Below are positions 1,305 to 15,758 of a DNA stretch of 64,000 nucleotides, piece by piece. The stretch comes from Parahoeflea alexandrii (GTDB taxonomy: Bacteria > Pseudomonadota > Alphaproteobacteria > Rhizobiales > Rhizobiaceae), in the NCBI RefSeq assembly GCF_024105735.1, contig NZ_JAAAML010000002.1, positions 496,001 through 560,000 of the forward strand, written 5' to 3'. The notes under the pieces are model-generated. The model did not search any database, was not told the origin of the DNA, and saw only the letters and a program-made list of their open reading frames with translations. Made by a program: the position numbers and the translations under genes. Within the stretch, counting starts at the first letter, position 1, and each line of letters opens with the position of its first letter.

Positions 1305-2876
1305 ATGAACGATATCCTTCACACCACTCATCCCGATTCCATCCTGATCATCGATTTCGGCAGTCAGGTTACGCAGCTCATTGCCCGCCGGGTTCGCGAA
1401 GCCGGCGTGTATTGTGAGATCGTCCCGTTCCAGCTCGCCGATGAAGGCTTTGAGCGGATGCAGCCGAAAGGCGTGATCTTTTCCGGCGGACCGGATTCGG
1501 TCACCCGCGAAGGCTCGCCACGCGCGCCGCAGGCGGTGTTCGATTCAGGTGTTCCCATCCTCGCCATCTGCTACGGCCAGCAGACGCTGTGCACCCAGAT
1601 CGGCGGTAGCGTCGAAGGCGGCCATCACCGCGAATTCGGCCGCGCCGATGTCGAGATCCTCAAATCCTCACCCTTGTTCGAGGGTTTCTGGGAAGTCGGC
1701 AAGAAATATCCCGTCTGGATGAGCCACGGCGACCGGGTCACGCGTCTTCCGGAAGGCTTTGAGGTGATCGGCACCTCGCCGAATGCTCCCTTTGCCATCT
1801 CGGTTGACGAGAAGCGCCGCTATTACACCACCATGTTCCACCCGGAAGTGGTGCACACGCCCGATGGCGCGAAACTCTTGTCCAACTTCGTGCACAAGAT
1901 CGTCGGCCTCAAATCCGACTGGTCGATGGCCGCCTACCGCGCCGAAATGGTGCAGAAGATCCGCGACCAGGTCGGCTCTGGCAAGGTCATCTGCGCGCTT
2001 TCCGGCGGTGTCGATTCCTCGGTCGCGGCGCTGCTGATTCACGAGGCGATCGGCGATCAGCTGACCTGCATCCTGGTCGACCACGGCCTGATGCGCATGA
2101 ACGAGGCGCGCGACGTGGTCGCCATGTTCCACGAGCATTACAATCTCAACCTGAAAATGATCGATGCCTCCGATCGCTTCATCTCGCAACTCGAGGGCGA
2201 GGCCGATCCGGAAGCCAAGCGCAAGACCATTGGCCGCCTGTTCATCGAGGTGTTCGAGGAAGAGGCGAAGAAGATCGGCGGCGCCGATTTCCTCGCCCAG
2301 GGCACGCTCTATCCCGATGTCATTGAAAGCGTTTCTTTCTCCGGCGGTCCGTCGGTCACGATCAAGTCGCACCACAATGTCGGCGGCCTGCCCGAACGCA
2401 TGAACATGCAGCTGGTCGAGCCCTTGCGCGAACTGTTCAAGGACGAGGTCCGTGTGCTGGGCCGTGAGCTCGGCCTGCCCGACAGCTTCATCGGTCGTCA
2501 CCCGTTCCCCGGTCCCGGTCTTGCCATCCGCTGCCCGGGCGGCATCACCCGCGAGAAACTCGACATCCTGCGCCAGGCCGACGCCATCTATTTGGACGAG
2601 ATCCGCAAGGCCGGCCTCTACGACACGATCTGGCAGGCATTCGCCGTGCTTCTGCCGGTGCAGACCGTCGGCGTCATGGGCGATGGCCGCACCTACGAAT
2701 TCGTCTGCGCGCTGCGCGCCGTTACCTCGGTCGACGGCATGACCGCCGATTTCTACCCCTACGACATGGATTTCCTCGGCAAGACCGCGACGCGGATCAT
2801 CAACGAGGTCAAGGGCATCAACCGCGTCGTCTACGACGTCACCTCCAAACCCCCCGGCACCATCGAGTGGGAATAA
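1305..2876 (+). CDS. guaA: GMP synthase (glutamine-hydrolysing)
   Basis: GuaA converts XMP to GMP using glutamine and ATP. The 523-residue length is typical. The N-terminal class I glutamine amidotransferase has the nucleophile C89 in ICYGQQ and the His-Glu pair in FHPEVVHT. The ATP-pyrophosphatase domain has the PP-loop SGGVDSSV near residue 229, and the C-terminal dimerisation domain ends with KPPGTIEWE, the conserved tail of the family. The start at 1305 lies 9 bp after the MTAN stop. An 11-bp stretch that covers the stop region (2864-2874, CGAGTGGGAAT) is repeated at 2881-2891. Confidence 0.98.
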
Positions 2877-2917
2877 CCGGCGAGTGGGAATGAGGCACTG
2901 AAACCACGGGACTGCAC

Positions 2918-3265
2918 ATGACCGTCACCATTTACGGCATCAAGAACTGCGACACGATGAAGAAGGCGCGGACCTGGCTCGCTGACCATTCCATCGAGGC
3001 CGGGTTCCACGACTACAAGGCGTCCGGCATCGATCGGGCGCATCTGGTGCGCTGGTGCAATGAATCTGGCTGGGAAACCGTTCTCAACCGTGCCGGCACC
3101 ACCTTCCGCAAGCTCGATGAGGCCGCCAAGCAGGATCTCGATCAGGAAAAGGCCATCGCGCTGATGCTGGCGCAGCCCTCGATGATCAAGCGTCCGGTGC
3201 TGGAAGCGGACGACCGGATCATCATCGGGTTCAAGCCGGACCGGTACGAGCAGTTCTTCGCCTGA
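2918..3265 (+). CDS. ArsC/Spx-like (YffB-type) reductase family protein
   Basis: The 115-residue thioredoxin-fold protein starts MTVTIYGIKNCDTMKKA. Cys11 in the NCDT motif sits where the ArsC nucleophile lies, and the length and the LLxQP-type ending are those of the YffB subgroup of the ArsC/Spx family. YffB-type proteins are assigned as glutathione-dependent thiol reductases; an arsenate function is not supported here because no ars gene is nearby. The gene sits 41 bp after guaA and 11 bp before ybaK on the same strand. Confidence 0.85.
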   Translation: MTVTIYGIKNCDTMKKARTWLADHSIEAGFHDYKASGIDRAHLVRWCNESGWETVLNRAGTTFRKLDEAAKQDLDQEKAIALMLAQPSMIKRPVLEADDRIIIGFKPDRYEQFFA

Positions 3266-3276
3266 GGAGAGGTGAG

Positions 3277-3750
3277 ATGGCGAAGACCACCCGCGCCACG
3301 ATAGAACTCACCAAGCTCGGTATTGCCTTCACCGTTCACAGCTATGACTACGATCCCGACGCCGAGAGCATCGGCCTGCAGGCAGCCGAGGCGCTCGGCG
3401 AGCCGCCCTCGCGTGTGCTCAAGACCCTGATGGCGGAGCTTGACGGCAAGCCGGTCTGCGTCGTGCTGCCGTCCGACCACGAGGTCAGCATGAAGAAGCT
3501 GGCCGCAGCCCTTGGCGGCAAGTCGGCCACGATGATGAAGTCCGCCGACGCCGAACGGCTTACCGGTTACCATGTCGGCGGCATCAGCCCTTTCGGCCAG
3601 AAAAAGCGGGTGCCGACCGCCATCGAAATGGCGGCCTTGTCGGAGCCCTATGTCTTCATCAATGGCGGTCAGCGCGGGCTGCAGGTCCGGCTTGACCCGA
3701 AGCATGCTGCACAAGCGCTCAATGCGGTTTCTGCCGAAGTCGTCGCCTAA
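3277..3750 (+). CDS. ybaK: Cys-tRNA(Pro)/Cys-tRNA(Cys) deacylase YbaK/EbsC family
   Basis: The 157-residue protein is of the usual size for stand-alone YbaK trans-editing deacylases, which hydrolyse Cys-tRNA(Pro) made in error by prolyl-tRNA synthetase. Family features are the N-terminal AKTTRATIELTKLGIAFTVHSY, the KTLMAELDG strand, and the conserved GYHVGGISPFGQKKRVP segment around residues 90-110. It is preceded by GAGGAGAGG, a strong ribosome binding site. It is the last gene of the plus-strand group and faces the convergent udgX-type gene 55 bp away. Confidence 0.9.
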   Translation: MAKTTRATIELTKLGIAFTVHSYDYDPDAESIGLQAAEALGEPPSRVLKTLMAELDGKPVCVVLPSDHEVSMKKLAAALGGKSATMMKSADAERLTGYHVGGISPFGQKKRVPTAIEMAALSEPYVFINGGQRGLQVRLDPKHAAQALNAVSAEVVA

Positions 3751-3805: not shown

Positions 3806-5275
3806 TCAGCCTGCCGCCATGTCCTGCCTGCCGGTCCGGGCCGCTAGTGCCGCAACCATCTCGACCGCCCGGCGCAGATCGGCCTCGAACAGAGCCATCT
3901 GCCTTTCCCGCTCCGCCGGATCGGGCAGACGCAGCAGGAACGACGGATGCACGGCCAGCAGCACCGGGGTGCCGTCGGCCAGCTGTTCCACCGTGCCGCG
4001 GCGGCGCAGAATATCGGCGCCGGTTCCGGTCAGCGCTTCCGCGGCCGTGGCGCCGAGCGCCAGGATCAGCTTCGGCTTGACCAAGGCCCGCTCGGCATCC
4101 AGCCACCAGCGGCAATGCTCGATCTCGCCGGAATTCGGCCGCTGGTGCAGCCGCCGCTTGCCGCGCGGGCTAAACTTGAAATGCTTGACCGCATTGGTGA
4201 CGAAGGCCTCCTGTCTCCGTAATCCAGCGGCCTCCGCAACCCGGTCAAACAACTGCCCGGCCGGGCCGACAAAGGGCAAGCCTGCCAGGTCCTCCTGGTC
4301 GCCCGGCTGCTCGCCGACAATCATCAGCGCGGCATCAAGCGGACCCACACCCGGTACGGCCTGGGTTGCGTTTTGGTGCAGCGGACAGCGCGTGCAAGCG
4401 TGGATCGCCGCGGGCAGCGCCTCCTTCGGGCCCTCCCAGGCTGACATGTGCGCGGCAAGCTGCTGGCGGGCCTTTTCGGCGCGGACCGGAGGCAGGGTAG
4501 GCGCTGCGTCCGCCATCGCCCGGGCTCGCGCCGGGGCATTGGCAATCAGGTCGGGGATCGTCGCTGCCTCCGGCAGATTCTTCCAGTATTTCTTTGGCAT
4601 TTCCGAGGTCATCGCCTGCACCTTCAGCCGCGCCGGATTGAAGATACTGCGGAAATAGGTGAGCCACAGCGCCTCGCTGGCATCATCGGGCAGCTCCGGC
4701 TTGGCTTGCCCCGGGGCAAAGGACAGCTTGCCATTCATGAAGATGGCTGTCTTTTCCGGTGTCACGATCCGCCAGTCCATGTCGCCAAACCGCCGCGCAA
4801 AGAAATCTGCCGTGGGCTCCAGCGTGTGATGGGTAGGTTCGAACCAGGCGGCGAAGCTGCGCCTGGGGTCGTCTCGATTGCCGATCTCGCGGAACCGGAC
4901 GAAGGCCTTCATCTTGTGCTGGCAGCGGCGCACCGATTTTTCCATCCCGCGCAGATGCGCCAGTTCCGTGTCGCCACGGTCGGCAATCAGATGGGGTGCG
5001 TCCTTGAGCCGCCACAGGAAGGCATAGAGCCTCGCAAAACGGTCGGGATCGCGGTGCCAGCACACGGTCTCCGCAAGCTCGACGAAGCTGCGCGGCACCG
5101 TCATTTTCACCGGTGCGGCGGCTGCCGCGGGCTGGTCGTCAAACAGTCCACGCTCGGTCTGCTCGCTTCCCCACGAAATGTCGGCAGGCGACAGGCCCTC
5201 GTTCAGACAGGCGCGCGCCGCCTTGCGCCAGGCCGCGGCCGTCCCGAAGTCTGGAACGATGATATGCCGCATCAC
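3806..5275 (-). CDS. DUF4130-UdgX fusion: uracil-DNA-crosslinking glycosylase-like protein
   Basis: This is a 489-residue two-domain protein. Residues about 60-255 match the DUF4130 region commonly found beside radical-SAM DNA repair proteins, and residues about 280-480 are a UdgX-type uracil-DNA glycosylase domain. Visible motifs are GEQPGDQE (321-328), NAVKHFKF (361-368), the KRRLH loop (373-377) and HPS (443-445). In characterised UdgX the His of this loop attaches covalently to the abasic site, freezing the protein on uracil-containing DNA; that His is present (H377). C294, C297 and C388 are probable Fe-S ligands, with H365 where family-4 enzymes carry Cys. It overlaps the radical-SAM gene by 4 bp, so the two are made together. 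Confidence 0.9.
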   Translation of the reverse strand: MMRHIIVPDFGTAAAWRKAARACLNEGLSPADISWGSEQTERGLFDDQPAAAAAPVKMTVPRSFVELAETVCWHRDPDRFARLYAFLWRLKDAPHLIADRGDTELAHLRGMEKSVRRCQHKMKAFVRFREIGNRDDPRRSFAAWFEPTHHTLEPTADFFARRFGDMDWRIVTPEKTAIFMNGKLSFAPGQAKPELPDDASEALWLTYFRSIFNPARLKVQAMTSEMPKKYWKNLPEAATIPDLIANAPARARAMADAAPTLPPVRAEKARQQLAAHMSAWEGPKEALPAAIHACTRCPLHQNATQAVPGVGPLDAALMIVGEQPGDQEDLAGLPFVGPAGQLFDRVAEAAGLRRQEAFVTNAVKHFKFSPRGKRRLHQRPNSGEIEHCRWWLDAERALVKPKLILALGATAAEALTGTGADILRRRGTVEQLADGTPVLLAVHPSFLLRLPDPAERERQMALFEADLRRAVEMVAALAARTGRQDMAAG

Positions 5276-6507
5276 AGCAGCGACAATTGCTGTGGCGGCG
5301 GCAGGAAGCGGCTGCGAAGCTGCGCCGTGTCGATCAAGCCGCCCGGCGACCAGCCCTGCGCGGTCACGAACGGTCCCGCCTTCTTCATCGATCCGCCCAT
5401 TCGCACCACGTCCTCGTAGCGGATGCTGCGATAGCGTCGCGTGCTCAGGATCCGGCTGACGGTTTTCACCCCGAAGCCCGGCACCCGCAAGAGCAACTCG
5501 CGGTCGGCGCGGTTGATGTCGACCGGGAACACTTCCCGATGCTTGAGCGCCCAGGCCAGTTTCGGATCAAGATCGAGGTCGAGATTGCCGTCACGCGCGC
5601 CGCTGACGATCTCCTTGAGGTCGAAACCATAGAACCGCAGCAGCCAGTCGGCCTGGTAGAGCCGGTGCTCGCGCACCAGCGGCGGGGAGATCAGCGGCAG
5701 CCGCGACGTGCTGTCGGGGATCGGCGAGAACGCGGAATAATAGACCCGTTTGAGCTGGTAGGAGGAGTAAAGCCGTGTCGATTCGCCCAGGATCGCGGCA
5801 TCGTTGGAGCCGTCGGCGCCGATAATCATCTGGGTCGACTGTCCGGCCGGCGCAAACTTTGGGGCCTTGCGGCCGGTATGGGTCTTGTCGCGGGCCGCTT
5901 CCTTGCGCAGCCGCACATCGGCCATCGCCCGGCGGATCTGCCCGGGGTTCTTTTCCGAGGCGAAGGTCTTCATGCTGGCGTCCGTCGGCAGTTCCACATT
6001 GATCGACAGCCGGTCGGCCAGCCGCCCCGCTTCCTCGATCAGTTCGGGCGCGGCATCGGGGATGGTCTTGAGATGAATGTAGCCGCGAAAATTCTCTTCC
6101 TCACGCAATTTGCGGACGATCTGCACCATGTCCGACATGGTGGCGTCGGGCGAACGGATGACGCCGGAGGACAGGAACAGACCCTCGATGTAGTTCCGGC
6201 GGTAGAAATCGATGGTCAGGCGCACCACCTCGTCGACCGAAAACCGCGCGCGCGGCACGTTCGATGACACCCGATTGATGCAATAGGCGCAATCATAGAT
6301 GCAGAAATTGGTCATCAGGATCTTGAGCAGACTGATGCAGCGCCCGTCGGGCGCGTAGGCGTGGCATATCCCGCTGCCCTGGTTCGAGCCGAGCCCCTTG
6401 CCGTCGCGGCTGTCGCGCTTGGTTGAGCCAGACGAGGCGCAGGAGGCGTCGTACTTGGCAGCGTCGCTAAGGATCGCCAGCTTTGATTCGAGTGTCTTTC
6501 CGGTCAT
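5272..6507 (-). CDS. Putative DNA modification/repair radical SAM protein
   Basis: The protein has 411 residues from the ATG at 6507; an upstream in-frame extension to 6591 has no family support. The radical-SAM triad C69-x3-C73-x2-C76 lies in NFCIYDCAYC, preceded by other cysteines at 23, 48 and 57. A helix-hairpin-helix element near the C-terminus (ELLLRVPGFGVKTVSRIL) points to DNA binding. This is the family often paired with DUF4130 and UdgX proteins; its reaction is not established. Its stop overlaps the start of the UdgX fusion (ATGA), and xseA lies 113 bp upstream on the same strand. Confidence 0.88.
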   Translation of the reverse strand: MTGKTLESKLAILSDAAKYDASCASSGSTKRDSRDGKGLGSNQGSGICHAYAPDGRCISLLKILMTNFCIYDCAYCINRVSSNVPRARFSVDEVVRLTIDFYRRNYIEGLFLSSGVIRSPDATMSDMVQIVRKLREEENFRGYIHLKTIPDAAPELIEEAGRLADRLSINVELPTDASMKTFASEKNPGQIRRAMADVRLRKEAARDKTHTGRKAPKFAPAGQSTQMIIGADGSNDAAILGESTRLYSSYQLKRVYYSAFSPIPDSTSRLPLISPPLVREHRLYQADWLLRFYGFDLKEIVSGARDGNLDLDLDPKLAWALKHREVFPVDINRADRELLLRVPGFGVKTVSRILSTRRYRSIRYEDVVRMGGSMKKAGPFVTAQGWSPGGLIDTAQLRSRFLPPPQQLSLL

Positions 6508-6620
6508 GTGTTCCTTATATGTTCCACTCGTGACCGCGGCAACAACCCATGTTGCACCTGAAAGGAAACAATGGTTCGGGATTGATGCCACCGTCGAAGC
6601 GGGGCCCTTGCTGTGAAGGG

Positions 6621-8204
6621 TTAGAACAGGCTACCCTGTCCCGGCTCCTTGGGCTTGGCGGCCTTGGCACGCGGCTGTTTCTTCGGAGCCGAGATCGATT
6701 GGTCGCTGCTCGCCAGCGCCGAGACCTCGCCATCGGCAAATTCAATGGCGATCATCGTGCCGGCATCTACCTCAGCCGCGCGCGCCAGAACCTTGCGGTC
6801 GGAATCGCGGATCACCGCATAGCCGCGTCCAAGCACGCTTTGGTAGGACAGCGATTGCAGCATGCGCGTCTGCGCAGCCAGTCCGCGTTTGCGCTGGTCC
6901 AGCATCAGGGTCAACGCATTGTCGGTCCGGCGGACAAGGTCGGTCAGCCGTTCTCTGCCGCGCCCCTGGGTGTCGGTCAGTCTGCGCGGAACCGAGGCCA
7001 GGATTTGCGCATGGCGCTCCAGCCGCGATTTCAGCGCATCGAGCCGGCGCTCCTGCACCCGGTCCATGCGCGCGATCTTGTCGCGGACCTGCTGGTGCTT
7101 CTCGCGGATGGCCGAGACCAATGCGATCGGCGTTACCCGGGCGGCCTGTTGTTCGAAGCGGCGTCGGCGGTTGGCGGTGTTGAGCTCCAGCGCCCGGCCG
7201 AGCGATTGCGCCGAGCGGTCGAGCCGTTGCCGCGGCAGCGCCAGCACGCTGTCGAGCGTCGGCAGGGCCCGCGCCAGTCCCCGGAGAGCCTCACGGCGCC
7301 TGTCGAGTGTGCGTGATTGCGCGGATTTCAGCCTGGCGGCGAGCGTTGCCACATGGGCTTCGAGATCAGCCTTTACCGGAACCGCCATTTCGGCCGCGCC
7401 CGTGGGTGTCGGCGCGCGCCGGTCGCTGGCATGGTCGATCAGCGTCCAGTCGGTCTCGTGCCCGACGGCCGAGATCAGCGGGATGTCGGATTGGGCGGCG
7501 GCGCGCACCACTGCCTCGTCATTGAAGCCCCAGAGATCTTCCAGGCTGCCGCCGCCGCGCGCCACGATGATCAGGTCCGGCCGCCTGATCGGCCCGCCTT
7601 TCTCAAATGCATTGAACCCGGCAATTGCCCGGGCGACCTCGTCGCCCGATGTGTCGCCCTGGACCCGCACCGGCCAGACGATGACATGGACGGGAAACCG
7701 GTCCTCGATCCGGTGCAGGATATCGCGGATCACCGCGCCCGTGGGCGATGTCACCACGCCGATCACCATCGGCATGTAGGGCAGCAACTGCTTGCGCGCT
7801 TCGTCGAACAGCCCCTCGGCGGCAAGCTTGCGCCGCCGTTCCTCGATCAGCGCCATCAGCGCGCCGGCACCCGCCGGCTCCAGCGCCTCGATCACGATCT
7901 GGTACTTTGACGAGCCCGCATAGGTGGTGACCTTGCCGGTGGCGATCACTTCCATGCCTTCTTCAGGCCGGTATTTGAGCCGCGAGAACACGCCCTTCCA
8001 GATCACCGCCTCGATGCGGGCCTTGTCATCCTTGAGCGAGAAATAGGCATGCCCGGATGAATGTGGACCGCGATAACCGGAAATCTCGCCGCGCACGCGC
8101 ACATTGCCGAAGGCATCTTCCACCGTCCGGCGGATCGAGCCGGACAGTTCAGTGACCGTGAATTCGGCGGCATTGGTGGGCGAATCATCCAAAAGCGAAG
8201 GCAT
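6621..8204 (-). CDS. xseA: Exodeoxyribonuclease VII large subunit
   Basis: XseA is the catalytic and DNA-binding subunit of exonuclease VII, which degrades single-stranded DNA to short oligonucleotides. The 527-residue protein has the N-terminal OB-fold (about 15-110), the catalytic core with [17 protein letters not shown] and [10 protein letters not shown] near residues 245-270, a long coiled-coil arm, and a basic C-terminal tail. It is longer than the E. coli protein (456) mainly in the tail. xseB is not adjacent. The start ATG at 8204 gives the usual N-terminus ([17 protein letters not shown]). Confidence 0.96.
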
Positions 8205-8420
8205 CCCCGAATCCGCACCATGATGCGGCCTGCGTCAAGTCCGCGGTTTGACCGGAAAGCGGACGAACGGCAATGCACTTCACGTTATGGCAGGGCTGGC
8301 CTAACATGCTTCCCGAAATCATTTCAAAACCATCGCTTGGTTCGGCTTGCTGGCGAATGTAAACTCAAACATAATTAGTTAAATTTTAGGGTAATTTATA
8401 AAAATTGGGACGGACAGGAT

Positions 8421-11258: not shown

Positions 11259-12170
11259 TCAGCGATGACCGTAATAGAGAGACACCGCGTGTTCGGCCTC
11301 CGCGAAAAACAGCCAGCGCTCCGCCAGCAGTCCGATCAGCATCGAGACCGCAGCCAGCAGGTTCACCAGCGCCGGTGCGCCGCTCAGGCCAACGATAGCG
11401 AGAACGAGCGCCGGTACGATCCCGCCAAGCACCAGCGCCAGCATGCGAAGCCGGCTTGCGTGCTTGCGGCCGATCCGGTGGACCATCTCGCGCGTCAGGT
11501 AATTCTCGCCGGTATGCGGGCGCTCGAGCAGCCGCACCTTGCCGATGAACCCGAGCCCCGTCGCGGTTTCGGGAGTTGAGCCGGCATCGCCAAGCCGCGA
11601 CCGGCTGGCACGCGCCCACCACATCCACTTGGCTGCCCAGGCAAGGCCGATCAGCCCGATCCCCCAGTACTCCGGCGCCTCGTGCGTGCCGAGCGCTGAG
11701 GCCAGCAGCCAGCCGGAGCCGAGCGCAAAGCCGCAATAGACCACCGGGGTGAGCCGGCTGTGCCACTGCGGCACGGTCTTGAGCTGCGCATAGATCATCG
11801 AGGTCGTGAACACCGTCAGCGCGGCGCCAAGCGCCGAAAGCAGCCCCAGCACCTGGTGCCGCGAACCAGTGGCAAGCCAGATCAGCACGTAGATGCCGAA
11901 CAGGATGAGAGTTGCGATCGCCGCAATCCCCTCGCGCGACAGCCAGCTTGAGCGCCACTGGCTCAGCGCCCGCCAGGCCCGTTCAGGATGCCCCAGGTGG
12001 AAGGTCGACGCCAGCAGGCCCGCCACCGCGAGACCCCCGCCGACAACGCCGACGAGGAACACCCAGGCGGCGGAAGCATCGACCGGAAAGCCGAGCCCGA
12101 GGAGAAAGATCATGCCGAGCCCGGCGCCCGACATGACGGTGAAGAAGATGACGGAAACGGCAGGATGCAT
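11259..12170 (-). CDS. soeC: Sulfite dehydrogenase membrane anchor (DmsC/NrfD-like)
   Basis: The 303-residue polytopic membrane protein has about eight or nine hydrophobic segments and begins MHPAVSVIFFTVMSGAGLGM, the start typical of DmsC-type anchors. It would hold the SoeAB dimer on the cytoplasmic face of the inner membrane and pass electrons to the quinone pool. The gene follows soeB by 4 bp, completing the A-B-C order. Assignment to Soe rather than to DMSO reductase depends on SoeA. Confidence 0.85.
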   Translation of the reverse strand: MHPAVSVIFFTVMSGAGLGMIFLLGLGFPVDASAAWVFLVGVVGGGLAVAGLLASTFHLGHPERAWRALSQWRSSWLSREGIAAIATLILFGIYVLIWLATGSRHQVLGLLSALGAALTVFTTSMIYAQLKTVPQWHSRLTPVVYCGFALGSGWLLASALGTHEAPEYWGIGLIGLAWAAKWMWWARASRSRLGDAGSTPETATGLGFIGKVRLLERPHTGENYLTREMVHRIGRKHASRLRMLALVLGGIVPALVLAIVGLSGAPALVNLLAAVSMLIGLLAERWLFFAEAEHAVSLYYGHR

Positions 12171-12174
12171 GGGA

Positions 12175-12921
12175 CTATCCGAGTTTGTCGAGCGCGGCGT
12201 CGAGCCAGCCGAGGAATCCGTCGGCCTTAGGCACGGAAGCCGGGGCGGCGGCGGATGGAGCCGCGGCCTGCGGGCGGGTCTTCGGACGCGGCGGCAGGTA
12301 CTTGTTGACCGGGTGGGTCTCCATCTCCGGCATCAGGTCGATGCCGCCACGCTCGGCGACCAGCCGCGAGACGTCTGACTCCGGATCGTTGAAATCGCCG
12401 AAATGCCGCGCGCTCGAGGGACAGGTGCGCACGCAGGCCGGAATCCGGTCTTCTTCGGGTAAGGTTTCGCTGTAGATCCGGTCGACGCAGAGCGTGCATT
12501 TCTTCATCACGTTCTCGACCGGATCCATCTCGCGCGCGCCGTAGGGGCAGGCCCAGGCGCAGAGCCCGCAGCCGATGCACAGGTCCTCGGTGACCAGCAC
12601 GATGCCATCTTCCGGGCGCTTGTGGCTGGCGCCGGTCGGGCACACGGTCACGCAGGGCGCATCATCGCAATGCAGGCAGGATTTCGGGAAATGCACGATC
12701 TGCGCCGGCGCGTCATCGGGCGTCACCTCGAAGGTGTGGATCCGGTTCAGCCAGGCCCCGGAAACATCTGAACCATAGGCATCTATGTCGGCCAGCGGCG
12801 AGGCGCCGGCACCTGTGTTCCATTCCTTGCAGTTGACCGCACAGGCATGGCATCCGACGCAGGTGTCGAGATCGATGACCAGGCCAAGCCGCTTTTCGGT
12901 GGTGGCGGGAAGACTGGTCAT
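12175..12921 (-). CDS. soeB: Sulfite dehydrogenase iron-sulfur subunit
   Basis: A 248-residue ferredoxin-type subunit with four cysteine clusters, in order: CVGCHACAVNC, CLHCDDAPCVTVC, CIGCGLCAWAC, and CTLC with a later CVRTC. These would bind four [4Fe-4S] clusters that carry electrons from the molybdenum site to the membrane anchor. A proline- and alanine-rich C-terminal tail of about 40 residues is extra compared with DmsB. The start overlaps the end of soeA by 4 bp. Confidence 0.9.
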   Translation of the reverse strand: MTSLPATTEKRLGLVIDLDTCVGCHACAVNCKEWNTGAGASPLADIDAYGSDVSGAWLNRIHTFEVTPDDAPAQIVHFPKSCLHCDDAPCVTVCPTGASHKRPEDGIVLVTEDLCIGCGLCAWACPYGAREMDPVENVMKKCTLCVDRIYSETLPEEDRIPACVRTCPSSARHFGDFNDPESDVSRLVAERGGIDLMPEMETHPVNKYLPPRPKTRPQAAAPSAAAPASVPKADGFLGWLDAALDKLG

Positions 12922-15758
12922 ATGGCTTTCCCCCGTCCGAACGCCACGTTGGTCGGCGCCTCTCCAACCGGACTTTTCTGTGCTCTGACGTCAGGCAGGC
13001 TTTGCCCGCTGCTCTGGTCGGCATCCCTGCGGATCGAAACCCGCAGATCGAACCAGGCCGCCTGTCCGGTGATCGGGTCGGAATTGGCCCAGCGACGCCC
13101 GTCGCCTTTCGGCGGCAGCAACTCGTCGATCAGGTGGTTGAGCAGGAAGCCGCGCGTCGCTTCCGGTGCATCCTTGTCGAGCGCCCAGGCCCCGGCGCGC
13201 TTGCCGATGGCGTTCCATGTCCACAGCGTCGAACCGTTGACCGCGTCCATGCGCGCAATCTTGACCCGGATCTCGCCCGATTGGGAGGACACGAGCGCCC
13301 AGTCACCAGTCTCCAATCCTTGGGCGTCGCAGACCTCGCCCGGGACATACAGCGCGTTTTCGCCGTGAATTTGCCTCAGCCAGGCATTCTGGGAGCCCCA
13401 GGAATGATACATCGCCGCCGGCCGCTGAGTAATCGCGTGCAGCGGATAGGCGTTCTCATCCAGCCCGTCGTCGGCAAAGGGTGGGTACCAGGTCGGCAAA
13501 GGGTCGAAACAGGTCCTGATCCGCTCGCGGTGATGTTCCGGCGGCATCGGCTTGATCTTGCCTTCGGCGGCAAGCTGGAACTTGCGCAAGGGCTCCAGAT
13601 AGAGCTGGAAGATGTTTTCCACCGGCCCGTCCTGCAGCCCTTTTTCAATCGCCCAGTCGCTCCACGCCCGGTTGGCGTGTTTGAAGTAATGCGCCTCTTG
13701 CGGCACATGCACCTGCGAGAAGCCGCCGTTCTCAATGTAGCGCTTGATCTGGTCCGGATTGGGCTTGCCCCGGCCGGTCTTGTCGCCGTCTTCGCCGCGC
13801 CAGCCCGACAGCGGCCCGATGCCCGGCTTGCGCTGGTGATTGACGATATAGTCGGCATAGTTCTTGTAGACCGGCGAGCCGTCCTCGGCGACCATGCCCG
13901 GCAGTTTCAGCCGTGCGCCGAGATCGAGCAGCACGCTCTGGAAGCCGCGCACGTCGCGATCGGGCTCGACCACCGGCCAGCGGATCGAATCGCACAGCGC
14001 CTCGGGCTCGCTGATCGGCCGATCGAGCAGCGAGATGCAGTCATGCCGTTCGAGATAGGTGGTGTCGGGCAGGATCAGGTCGGCAAACGCCACCATCTCC
14101 GAGGAATAGGCGTCCGAATAGATGATCTTCGGAATCACGTACTCGCCGTCCGCGTCCTTGTCGGTCAGCATCTTCATCACCGAAGAGCTGTTCATCGATG
14201 AATTCCAGGCCATGTTGGCCATGTACATGAACAGGACATCGATGCCGTAGGGATCGCGCGCATGGGCATTGGAAATCACCATGTGCATCATGCCGTGCGC
14301 CGACAGCGGCGCATCCCAGGAAAACGCCTTGTCGATGCGCTGGGCGGTCTCGCCGTCGGCTTCGAGCAGCAGATCTTCCGGTCCGCGCGGATAGCCCAGA
14401 TGCGGCCCGGCCAGCGCCGTGTCGGCGCAGGCGCCGCCATGCGGTCGCGGCTGGCCGGCAACCGGCCGCGGGTAGGGCGGCTTGAAGCGGAATCCTCCGG
14501 GGCAATCGATCGATCCGACCAGGATCTGCAGCATGTGCAGCGCGCGGCAGGTCTGGAACCCGTTGGAATGGGCTGAAATCCCGCGCATCGCGTGAAACGC
14601 CACCGGTCGACCGATCATCCGCTCGTGCCGCTCGCCCTTCATGTCGGTCCAGGGCCGCTCGATCACCACTTCGCGCTCGAAGGCGGCTGCGGCGATCTCG
14701 CCGGCGATGCGGGTGATGGTGTCGGCAGCAATTCCGGTCCGCTCGGCAACGGCTGCAGGCGCGTACTGCGGATCGAGATATTTTTGCGCCAGCAGTTCGA
14801 ACACAGGAATGGCGTGACGGCCGTCCGGCAGTTCGAAACGGCCCTTCAGCGCCGGCTTGATCCCCGGGGTTGCAGACGAGACGGGCTTGCCGGTCTGCCG
14901 GTCGGCCACAAGCGGGACACCTTCGTCGTCGCGCGCAAACAACCCGTGACCGGCGCCCTCCGCATCGTCGATCACCAGCCAGGGCGCGTTGGTGTAGCGG
15001 ATCAGGTAGTCGAGATCGATCTTGCCGGTGCGCATCAGCTCGTGCACCAGCGCCAGGATCAGCAGCCCGTCGGTGCCCGGCGTGATGCCGAGCCATTCAT
15101 CGGCAATCGCGTTGTAGCCGGTCCGCACCGGATTGACGCCGATCACCTTGACGCCGCGCTCCTTGAGTTTGCCCAGGCCCATCTTGATCGGGTTGGAATC
15201 GTGATCCTCGGCCACGCCGAAAATCATGAACAGCTCGGTCTTCTCCCAGTCCGGTGCTCCAAACTCCCAAAAGGCCCCGCCCATCGTGTAGATGCCGGCG
15301 GCAGCCATGTTGACCGAGCAGAAACCGCCATGGGCTGCGTAATTGGGAGTACCGTACTGCTGCGCCCACCAGCCGGTCATCGACTGGCTCTGGTCGCGCC
15401 CGGTGAAGAATGCTAGCTTCCGCGGATCGGAGCTGCGGACCTCACCGAGCCATTGGGTGGCAAGCTCCAGCGCCTCGTCCCATTCGATTTCCTTGAATTC
15501 GCCCGAACCTCGTTCGCCGGTCCTTAGCAAGGGCTTCTTCAGCCGTGCCGGTGAATAATGCTGCATGATCCCCGCCGACCCCTTGGCGCAGAGCACGCCC
15601 TTGTTGATCGGGTGATCCCGGTTGCCCTCGATATAGTGGACCTTGCCTTCCGCCATGTGGACATTGATGCCGCACCTGCAGGCACACATGTAACAGGTGG
15701 TCTTGCGAATTTCGGTCTTGCCGTCAGCCGCGCCCGGAGCCCTGCTGGTCTGGTTCAT
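12918..15758 (-). CDS. soeA: Sulfite:quinone oxidoreductase, molybdopterin catalytic subunit
   Basis: A 946-residue member of the DMSO reductase superfamily that resembles SoeA of purple sulfur bacteria, the cytoplasmic enzyme oxidising sulfite to sulfate. The N-terminal [4Fe-4S] motif is C22-x2-C25-x3-C29 with C57 in GVLCAKG. C147 in HGGFCSVNMAA is the likely molybdenum ligand. There is no twin-arginine signal peptide, which fits a cytoplasm-facing enzyme and argues against periplasmic DMSO or polysulfide reductases. Family residues near 110-260 (FTGRDQSQSMTG, NYAAHGGFCSVN, VAEDHDSNPIKM, NPVRTGYNAIADEW) match what I remember of Allochromatium SoeA. Related families include assimilatory nitrate and formate enzymes, but these fit less well. 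Confidence 0.85.
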   Translation of the reverse strand: MNQTSRAPGAADGKTEIRKTTCYMCACRCGINVHMAEGKVHYIEGNRDHPINKGVLCAKGSAGIMQHYSPARLKKPLLRTGERGSGEFKEIEWDEALELATQWLGEVRSSDPRKLAFFTGRDQSQSMTGWWAQQYGTPNYAAHGGFCSVNMAAAGIYTMGGAFWEFGAPDWEKTELFMIFGVAEDHDSNPIKMGLGKLKERGVKVIGVNPVRTGYNAIADEWLGITPGTDGLLILALVHELMRTGKIDLDYLIRYTNAPWLVIDDAEGAGHGLFARDDEGVPLVADRQTGKPVSSATPGIKPALKGRFELPDGRHAIPVFELLAQKYLDPQYAPAAVAERTGIAADTITRIAGEIAAAAFEREVVIERPWTDMKGERHERMIGRPVAFHAMRGISAHSNGFQTCRALHMLQILVGSIDCPGGFRFKPPYPRPVAGQPRPHGGACADTALAGPHLGYPRGPEDLLLEADGETAQRIDKAFSWDAPLSAHGMMHMVISNAHARDPYGIDVLFMYMANMAWNSSMNSSSVMKMLTDKDADGEYVIPKIIYSDAYSSEMVAFADLILPDTTYLERHDCISLLDRPISEPEALCDSIRWPVVEPDRDVRGFQSVLLDLGARLKLPGMVAEDGSPVYKNYADYIVNHQRKPGIGPLSGWRGEDGDKTGRGKPNPDQIKRYIENGGFSQVHVPQEAHYFKHANRAWSDWAIEKGLQDGPVENIFQLYLEPLRKFQLAAEGKIKPMPPEHHRERIRTCFDPLPTWYPPFADDGLDENAYPLHAITQRPAAMYHSWGSQNAWLRQIHGENALYVPGEVCDAQGLETGDWALVSSQSGEIRVKIARMDAVNGSTLWTWNAIGKRAGAWALDKDAPEATRGFLLNHLIDELLPPKGDGRRWANSDPITGQAAWFDLRVSIRRDADQSSGQSLPDVRAQKSPVGEAPTNVAFGRGKAI

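Follow-up and report, generated by a model that had tools for sequence, protein, structure and literature searches.

Organization of the locus

We analyzed a pair of genes in a 64,000-nucleotide stretch of Parahoeflea alexandrii DNA (contig NZ_JAAAML010000002.1, positions 496,001 to 560,000; here called the window). The pair encodes a radical S-adenosylmethionine (radical-SAM) protein and a fusion of DUF4130 to a UdgX-type uracil-DNA glycosylase (UDG) domain (Table 1), and it appears to form a DNA damage-inducible operon. A first-pass annotation, made from the sequence alone, had joined the pair to the adjacent xseA gene as one module. Its three minus-strand genes in a row were borne out, all scoring above curated cut-offs, as was the 113-bp gap between xseA and the radical-SAM gene. 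The 4-bp overlap it gave for the radical-SAM and fusion genes holds if the fusion starts at a GTG at position 5275; with the ATG at 5272 the overlap is the 1 bp shared in TGATG. The fusion scored 204.2 bits against TIGR03915 (cut-off 112.25) and 330 bits against TIGR03914 (cut-off 189.95), and Pfam matches at the locus were to DUF4130, UDG, and Radical_SAM. The helix-hairpin-helix proposed for the radical-SAM protein is present as a match at residues 329-357, but at 20 bits for HHH_3 it falls below the Pfam cut-off of 27 bits (E 7e-4).

Table 1. Features of the pair and its borders (window positions)
Feature	Position	Strand	Remark
Radical-SAM protein, TIGR03916 (rSAM_link_UDG)	5272-6507	-	581.3 bits (cut-off 343.5)
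DUF4130-UdgX fusion	3806-5275	-	TIGR03915 at residues 11-237, TIGR03914 at residues 240-469
H377 codon, KRRLH loop	4145-4147	-	Equivalent of crosslinking H109 in M. smegmatis UdgX
LexA (SOS) operator, predicted	6510-6524	n/a	GTTC-N7-GTTC; ends 2 bp before radical-SAM ATG
xseA, exonuclease VII large subunit	6621-8204	-	TIGR00237, 442.9 bits (cut-off 180); resident neighbor outside the module
ybaK-labeled open reading frame, other border of the pair	3277-3750	+	Label only

A predicted LexA operator precedes the pair

A perfect GTTC-N7-GTTC box stands immediately upstream of the radical-SAM gene and had been overlooked in the first-pass annotation. It reads GTTCCTTATATGTTC on the plus strand and GAACATATAAGGAAC on the strand of the gene. 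We take GTTC-N7-GTTC to be the LexA consensus of the Alphaproteobacteria, and it agrees with boxes of the same kind found before lexA and before imuA-imuB-dnaE2 in the window's own genome. No perfect box was among the places listed near recA of that genome. The pattern occurs once in the window and 1.8 occurrences are expected in shuffled sequence; the number is therefore not unusual and proves nothing. What counts instead is the place of the box, 2 bp before the start, and its conservation.

Conservation was scored in 85 loci, namely, that of the window, 15 from relatives, and 69 from a sample of the phylum; 63 belong to the same class (the window, the 15 relatives, and 47 of the phylum sample) and 22 to other classes. 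The related set held 61 genomes including the window's, 16 of which carry the radical-SAM gene, and the window's genus contributed 7 carriers among 18 members. The phylum sample held 349 genomes, with TIGR03916 above cut-off in 70 and TIGR03914 in 68; 14 genomes with weak TIGR03916 matches below cut-off (84 matches minus 70) were unused. Two loci were excluded because they duplicate others in shorter form, L061 being a copy of L130 and L065 of L131. A second set of 80 named genomes brought the total to 165 loci.

All 63 same-class loci have a perfect GTTC-N7-GTTC box no more than 84 bp from the radical-SAM start, 58 of them within 45 bp, and the boxes comprise 40 distinct sequences. In other classes the operator takes another form: CTGT-N8-ACAG precedes 14 of the 22 loci, and neither box type occurs in the other group. 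TACTG-N10-CAGTA is carried by four further loci from other classes (L097-L100), and L085 comes near that pattern. Elsewhere in the 85 loci, GTTC-N7-GTTC occurs 11 times and CTGT-N8-ACAG 5 times in 624,019 bp. A perfect box was also found in 75 of the 80 named genomes; three others are one base short (L153, L177, and L203), and L207 has ACTG-N10-CAGT. We conclude from the position and conservation of the box that the pair is probably under LexA (SOS) control. Such control has been published for this operon in other bacteria: passages of PMC8565304 describe motifs of the SOS type upstream of COG1573-COG4277 in Bacteroidetes and cite the same for Verrucomicrobia (Erill 2016) and for Caulobacter, an alphaproteobacterium (Paes da Rocha 2008). 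A Caulobacter genome included here as a control matched TIGR03916.

We note that 54 of 134 boxes in relatives likewise leave 2 bp before the ATG. A sigma-70 scan of positions 6400-8300 returned no promoter-like site. By eye, the LexA box contains a -10-like TATAAG, and the mRNA may be nearly leaderless.

In some genomes the pair is linked to the translesion mutasome. ImuA- or DnaE2-like matches lie beside it in 15 of the 165 loci. Two of these (L214 and L216) have the order imuA-imuB-radical-SAM-fusion-dnaE2 on one strand, and in L216 1-bp overlaps join the radical-SAM gene, the fusion, and dnaE2. In both, DnaE2 scored above the curated cut-off, ImuB was identified by Pfam IMS, and ImuA was found below cut-off or by BLAST only. 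The imuA gene is divergent from the pair in five loci (L119, L120, L124, L125, and L127). In the window's genome, about 450 kb separate the pair from dnaE2, which is on that contig as well.

The UdgX domain keeps the crosslinking residues

The UDG part of the fusion is of the UdgX type. Residue roles were taken from passages of PMC10776899 on Mycobacterium smegmatis UdgX, and the window protein has equivalents of E52, Q53, D56, D59, F65, N91, K94, R107, H109, and H178. The R-loop reads KRRLH and contains R375 and H377, the crosslinking histidine that the first-pass annotation had named. Among 137 fused proteins (67 from the 85 loci and 70 from the 80), the H109 equivalent is present in 136; R107, D56, and K94 are present in all 137; and H178 is present in 135. 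The protein without an aligned crosslinking histidine is that of L162. One locus, L118, was left out of the 137 as its DUF4130 and UDG parts are in different frames, the result of a frameshift or a sequence error. The predicted model of the fusion can be superposed on known structures of UdgX with a best E of 4.8e-20, and its structural alignment to M. smegmatis UdgX gives 47 to 51% identity over about 190 residues. Among the matches listed for the two-domain model, UDG-superfamily and polymerase-fused UDG-like entries predominate, and these matches are uninformative on the fold of DUF4130.

Because the crosslinking histidine is kept in 136 of 137 proteins, the "uracil glycosylase" of this SOS operon is probably a suicide crosslinker that acts on uracil-derived abasic sites. 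The covalent chemistry proposed in the first-pass annotation is thus likely, the crosslinking residue set being complete. Ordinary family-4 UDG-like matches also occur in the window's genome.

Some of the fused proteins appear to be UdgX variants of another kind. In 14 of the 137 (L027, L030, L077, L079, L080, L083, L086, L094, L114, L146, L147, L152, L154, and L194), none of the three aligned iron-sulfur cysteines remains, each being substituted or falling in a gap, and these proteins probably lack the iron-sulfur cluster. At least 13 of the 14 keep the crosslinking histidine, and L162 is not among them.

The radical-SAM/DUF4130 pair and UdgX are separable

The radical-SAM protein has the cluster motif CX3CX2C at C69, C73, and C76, which is invariant in 34 aligned proteins. 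Three further cysteines, C23, C48, and C57, are likewise invariant in these proteins, which suggests a second metal site. Weak fold matches to the predicted model include HydE, lipoyl synthase, biotin synthase, MiaB, and others, with query-normalized TM-scores of about 0.35 to 0.41. Photoproduct lyase is absent among the 50 of 1,345 Foldseek matches that were listed, and a profile of the protein found no sequence relative in the PDB at E 0.01.

By BLAST, DUF4130 comes after the radical-SAM gene in every locus of both sets (85 of 85 and 80 of 80), at a greater distance in L130 and L131 (about 4 kb). The radical-SAM gene held up as the constant operon partner of the fusion. UdgX behaves differently. 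When the lists of the phylum sample were compared by hand, 54 genomes had both TIGR03916 and TIGR03914, 16 had the radical-SAM gene only, and 14 had UdgX only. The 16 (of 70 radical-SAM carriers) have no UdgX above cut-off and carry a DUF4130 gene without a UDG domain; L129, which ends at a contig edge, was not scored as lacking UdgX. Conversely, 14 of the 68 genomes with UdgX lack the radical-SAM gene. Because 16 of 70 carriers have the radical-SAM gene and DUF4130 but no UdgX above cut-off, the chemistry of these two cannot be adduct release alone.

Three UdgX-only loci (L132, L133, and L134) retain a short DUF4130 tail in front, and they look as if the radical-SAM gene and DUF4130 decayed while UdgX stayed. 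These remnants and the counts argue that the radical-SAM protein and DUF4130 work without UdgX and that UdgX can outlast them. In L139, we note a DUF4130-UdgX gene without a radical-SAM gene that is divergent from an imuA-like gene (1150-2715 and 2760-3590).

The pair appears to be horizontally acquired, and xseA is a local neighbor

The radical-SAM gene of the window's genus has its closest relatives in another family. A tree of 79 sequences was built from the window, the 15 relatives, 18 of the 47 same-class loci of the phylum sample, and 45 of the 80 named loci. The seven sequences of the genus form one group (support 100/100), which is nested in Roseobacteraceae sequences (12 rows, 96/97) and stands apart from the Rhizobiaceae and Phyllobacteriaceae rows, where the window's own family groups. 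Best matches agree, with 80 to 82% identity to Roseobacteraceae proteins versus 64 to 70% for Rhizobiaceae-type rows. The position of the gene among Roseobacteraceae points to horizontal transfer. Vertical inheritance of the pair in the window's own family was rejected by an approximately unbiased (AU) test (p-AU, 6.7e-7; cost, 148 log-likelihood units), in which the constraint joined the genus to 14 Rhizobiaceae-type rows, a group picked after the tree was seen.

The gene also occurs on plasmids: of 72,556 records, 158 carry it, with Phaeobacter accounting for 58, and a Sulfitobacter plasmid carries the radical-SAM gene, UdgX, and the box together. Carriage by phages was seen in 10 of 50,697 records. 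One 240-kb record labeled "Acinetobacter phage" (CAKLQH020000003.1, L233) has the radical-SAM gene and DUF4130 beside glyS, glyQ, and an aidB-like gene, and it may be bacterial chromosome DNA.

The linkage to xseA does not extend beyond the genus. The survey of the xseA neighborhood that the first-pass annotation had proposed was run, and xseA adjoins the pair in all seven carriers of the genus, with gaps of 92 to 113 bp in six of them and a wider one, of about 270 bp, in the other. None of the 9 carriers outside the genus has xseA in the fetched neighborhood of the pair; in these genomes it lies on a different contig or, in the case of G055, at a distance of more than 100 kb. Nor was xseA found within about 2 to 2.5 kb of the pair in 69 further phylum-sample loci or within at most 5 kb in the 80 named genomes, some of whose loci are shorter. 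On these counts, xseA is rejected as a part of the module; the absence of a conserved linkage in related genomes was one of the outcomes that the first-pass annotation had named as refuting its proposal.

The xseA regions of genus members without the pair were compared in 9 of 11 genomes, the other two having no xseA match. In two of them (L222 and L223), the ybaK-labeled gene and xseA adjoin directly, separated by about 50 and 110 bp, and represent the pair-free site. The name ybaK, for this gene and for the open reading frame that borders the pair in the window, is a putative assignment. In L226, arsC adjoins xseA and no ybaK match was found, and in L228 the xseA region stops at the contig end. 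The remaining five (L221, L224, L225, L227, and L229) have 1.5 to 2.8 kb of other DNA beside xseA, and the site may be variable. We infer that the adjacency to xseA is incidental, and the cassette looks to have been acquired horizontally into the flank of xseA.

Elsewhere in the window, three minus-strand open reading frames of 303, 248, and 946 residues (11259-15758) resemble by eye the subunits of a molybdopterin oxidoreductase, and the 248-residue frame has ferredoxin-like cysteine motifs, also by eye.

Discussion

How the pair might act can be put forward as follows. We propose that TIGR03916 and the DUF4130-UdgX fusion form a two-gene, LexA-repressed SOS operon for the capping of uracil-derived abasic sites and that its placement beside xseA is incidental, a reading to which we assign a probability of roughly 0.55. 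LexA would repress the operon through an operator overlapping the start of the radical-SAM gene. After DNA damage, RecA filaments would promote LexA cleavage, and both proteins would be made at the same time as RecA and the translesion polymerase ImuB/DnaE2. Uracil would then be excised by the UdgX domain, chiefly in single-stranded DNA exposed during SOS, and the domain would stay covalently bound via H377, capping the abasic site against strand breakage. The radical-SAM protein and DUF4130 would be the older, obligatory core, acting by radical chemistry on a damaged base or on the backbone, and UdgX would be an optional domain.

Several observations weigh against this proposal. The operator pattern is weakly specific, with 144 occurrences in the genome against 108 for the same pattern read backwards. 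Three loci outside the Alphaproteobacteria (L062, L063, and L101) have no recognizable box and five others have imperfect ones only, and among the named genomes, five of which lack a perfect box, L198 shows none by eye. The loci are related, and the named and unnamed sets share species, such that the counts are not independent events. Mutasome linkage was seen in only 15 of the 165 loci, the flanks compared being uneven in length, and another DnaE could account for four of the DnaE matches, which have 30 to 42% identity. Finally, the model of the radical-SAM protein is of moderate quality (predicted local distance difference test score of 77), and many radical-SAM enzymes matched it equally weakly.

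Related systems have been described. Passages of PMC3765255 tie DUF4130 to SplB-like radical-SAM proteins and UDGs in SOS neighborhoods. The set TIGR03914/TIGR03915/TIGR03916, which corresponds to COG1573-COG4277 in PMC8565304, has the same families, gene order, and SOS operator as the pair. It differs in that it was presented there as a base-excision system, whereas the UDG part here keeps the UdgX crosslinking residues and has xseA beside it in the genus. Passages of PMC10359453 propose that UdgX protects abasic (AP) sites and that its adducts are resolved by RecA-dependent pathways or proteases, and they call the physiological role of UdgX largely unknown. Searched for SOS, LexA, DUF4130, and the word radical, that paper and PMC10776899 mention none of them. 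Our searches of the open-licence literature found nothing that joined a crosslinking UdgX with SOS, and no match for UdgX with radical SAM. UdgX of M. smegmatis shares the residue set; that of the window differs in being fused behind DUF4130 and co-operonic with a radical-SAM gene. The SRAP proteins (YedK/HMCES), like UdgX in the proposal above, cap abasic sites covalently. Their fold and chemistry are unrelated to those of UdgX, which uses a histidine and generates the AP site itself, starting from uracil. Like the pair, SRAP proteins are tied to SOS/ImuB neighborhoods in passages of PMC3765255. The ImuA-ImuB-DnaE2 mutasome shares the type of LexA box and, in some genomes, one operon with the pair; the two are separate in the window's genome.

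Other explanations may be considered for the same genes. The printed base-excision proposal would account for SOS control and for a shared operon with dnaE2 in some genomes. Residues for covalent capture in nearly every fused protein, however, imply that the enzyme should act once, unlike a glycosylase that turns over; moreover, the UDG domain is missing from the 16 carriers without UdgX, and ordinary family-4 UDG-like matches exist in this genome. We consider base excision unlikely. Alternatively, the radical-SAM protein might directly reverse a thymine lesion in the manner of spore photoproduct lyase; DUF4130 would then bind DNA or handle bases as its partner, and UdgX would serve a different lesion. 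SOS control fits UV lesions, but the predicted fold matches HydE, lipoyl synthase, MiaB, and others, no photoproduct lyase appeared among the 50 matches listed, and the profile found no sequence relative in the PDB at E 0.01. We consider this reading unlikely as well.

The module of the first-pass annotation, in which UdgX would trap uracil lesions through a covalent bond and release of the adduct would fall to exonuclease VII, the radical-SAM enzyme, or both, rested on three adjacent, co-oriented genes and on UdgX residues that are indeed intact. It now seems very unlikely. In the neighborhoods covered, no locus outside the genus has xseA near the pair, and the pair, preceded by an operator of its own, looks like a horizontal acquisition. 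A role for the radical-SAM enzyme in resolving the adduct is weakened by the 16 of 70 carriers that have radical-SAM/DUF4130 and no UdgX above cut-off and by the 14 of 68 UdgX genomes that lack the radical-SAM gene. Finally, the NCBIfam name includes "DNA modification/repair" and the cassette is on 158 plasmid records, as might suit a DNA hypermodification or antiphage system. The absence of any PADLOC-DB or PHROGs match tells against such a system, and the conserved LexA operator and the mutasome linkage indicate a damage response instead; we give it hardly any credence.

The neighborhood of xseA illustrates that the gene order of one genus can mislead. One LexA operator for UdgX and TIGR03916, with the dnaE2 operon added in some genomes, says when both would act, namely, during SOS and at single-stranded gaps. 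SOS induction would then be expected to produce uracil-dependent protein-DNA crosslinks and to alter mutation spectra. We speculate, tentatively, that in many Pseudomonadota the mutagenic SOS response may include a suicide protein that excises uracil, remains joined to the abasic site, and works at translesion gaps with ImuB and DnaE2, together with a repair arm in which its obligatory DUF4130 and radical-SAM partners would carry out a new radical reaction on damaged DNA.

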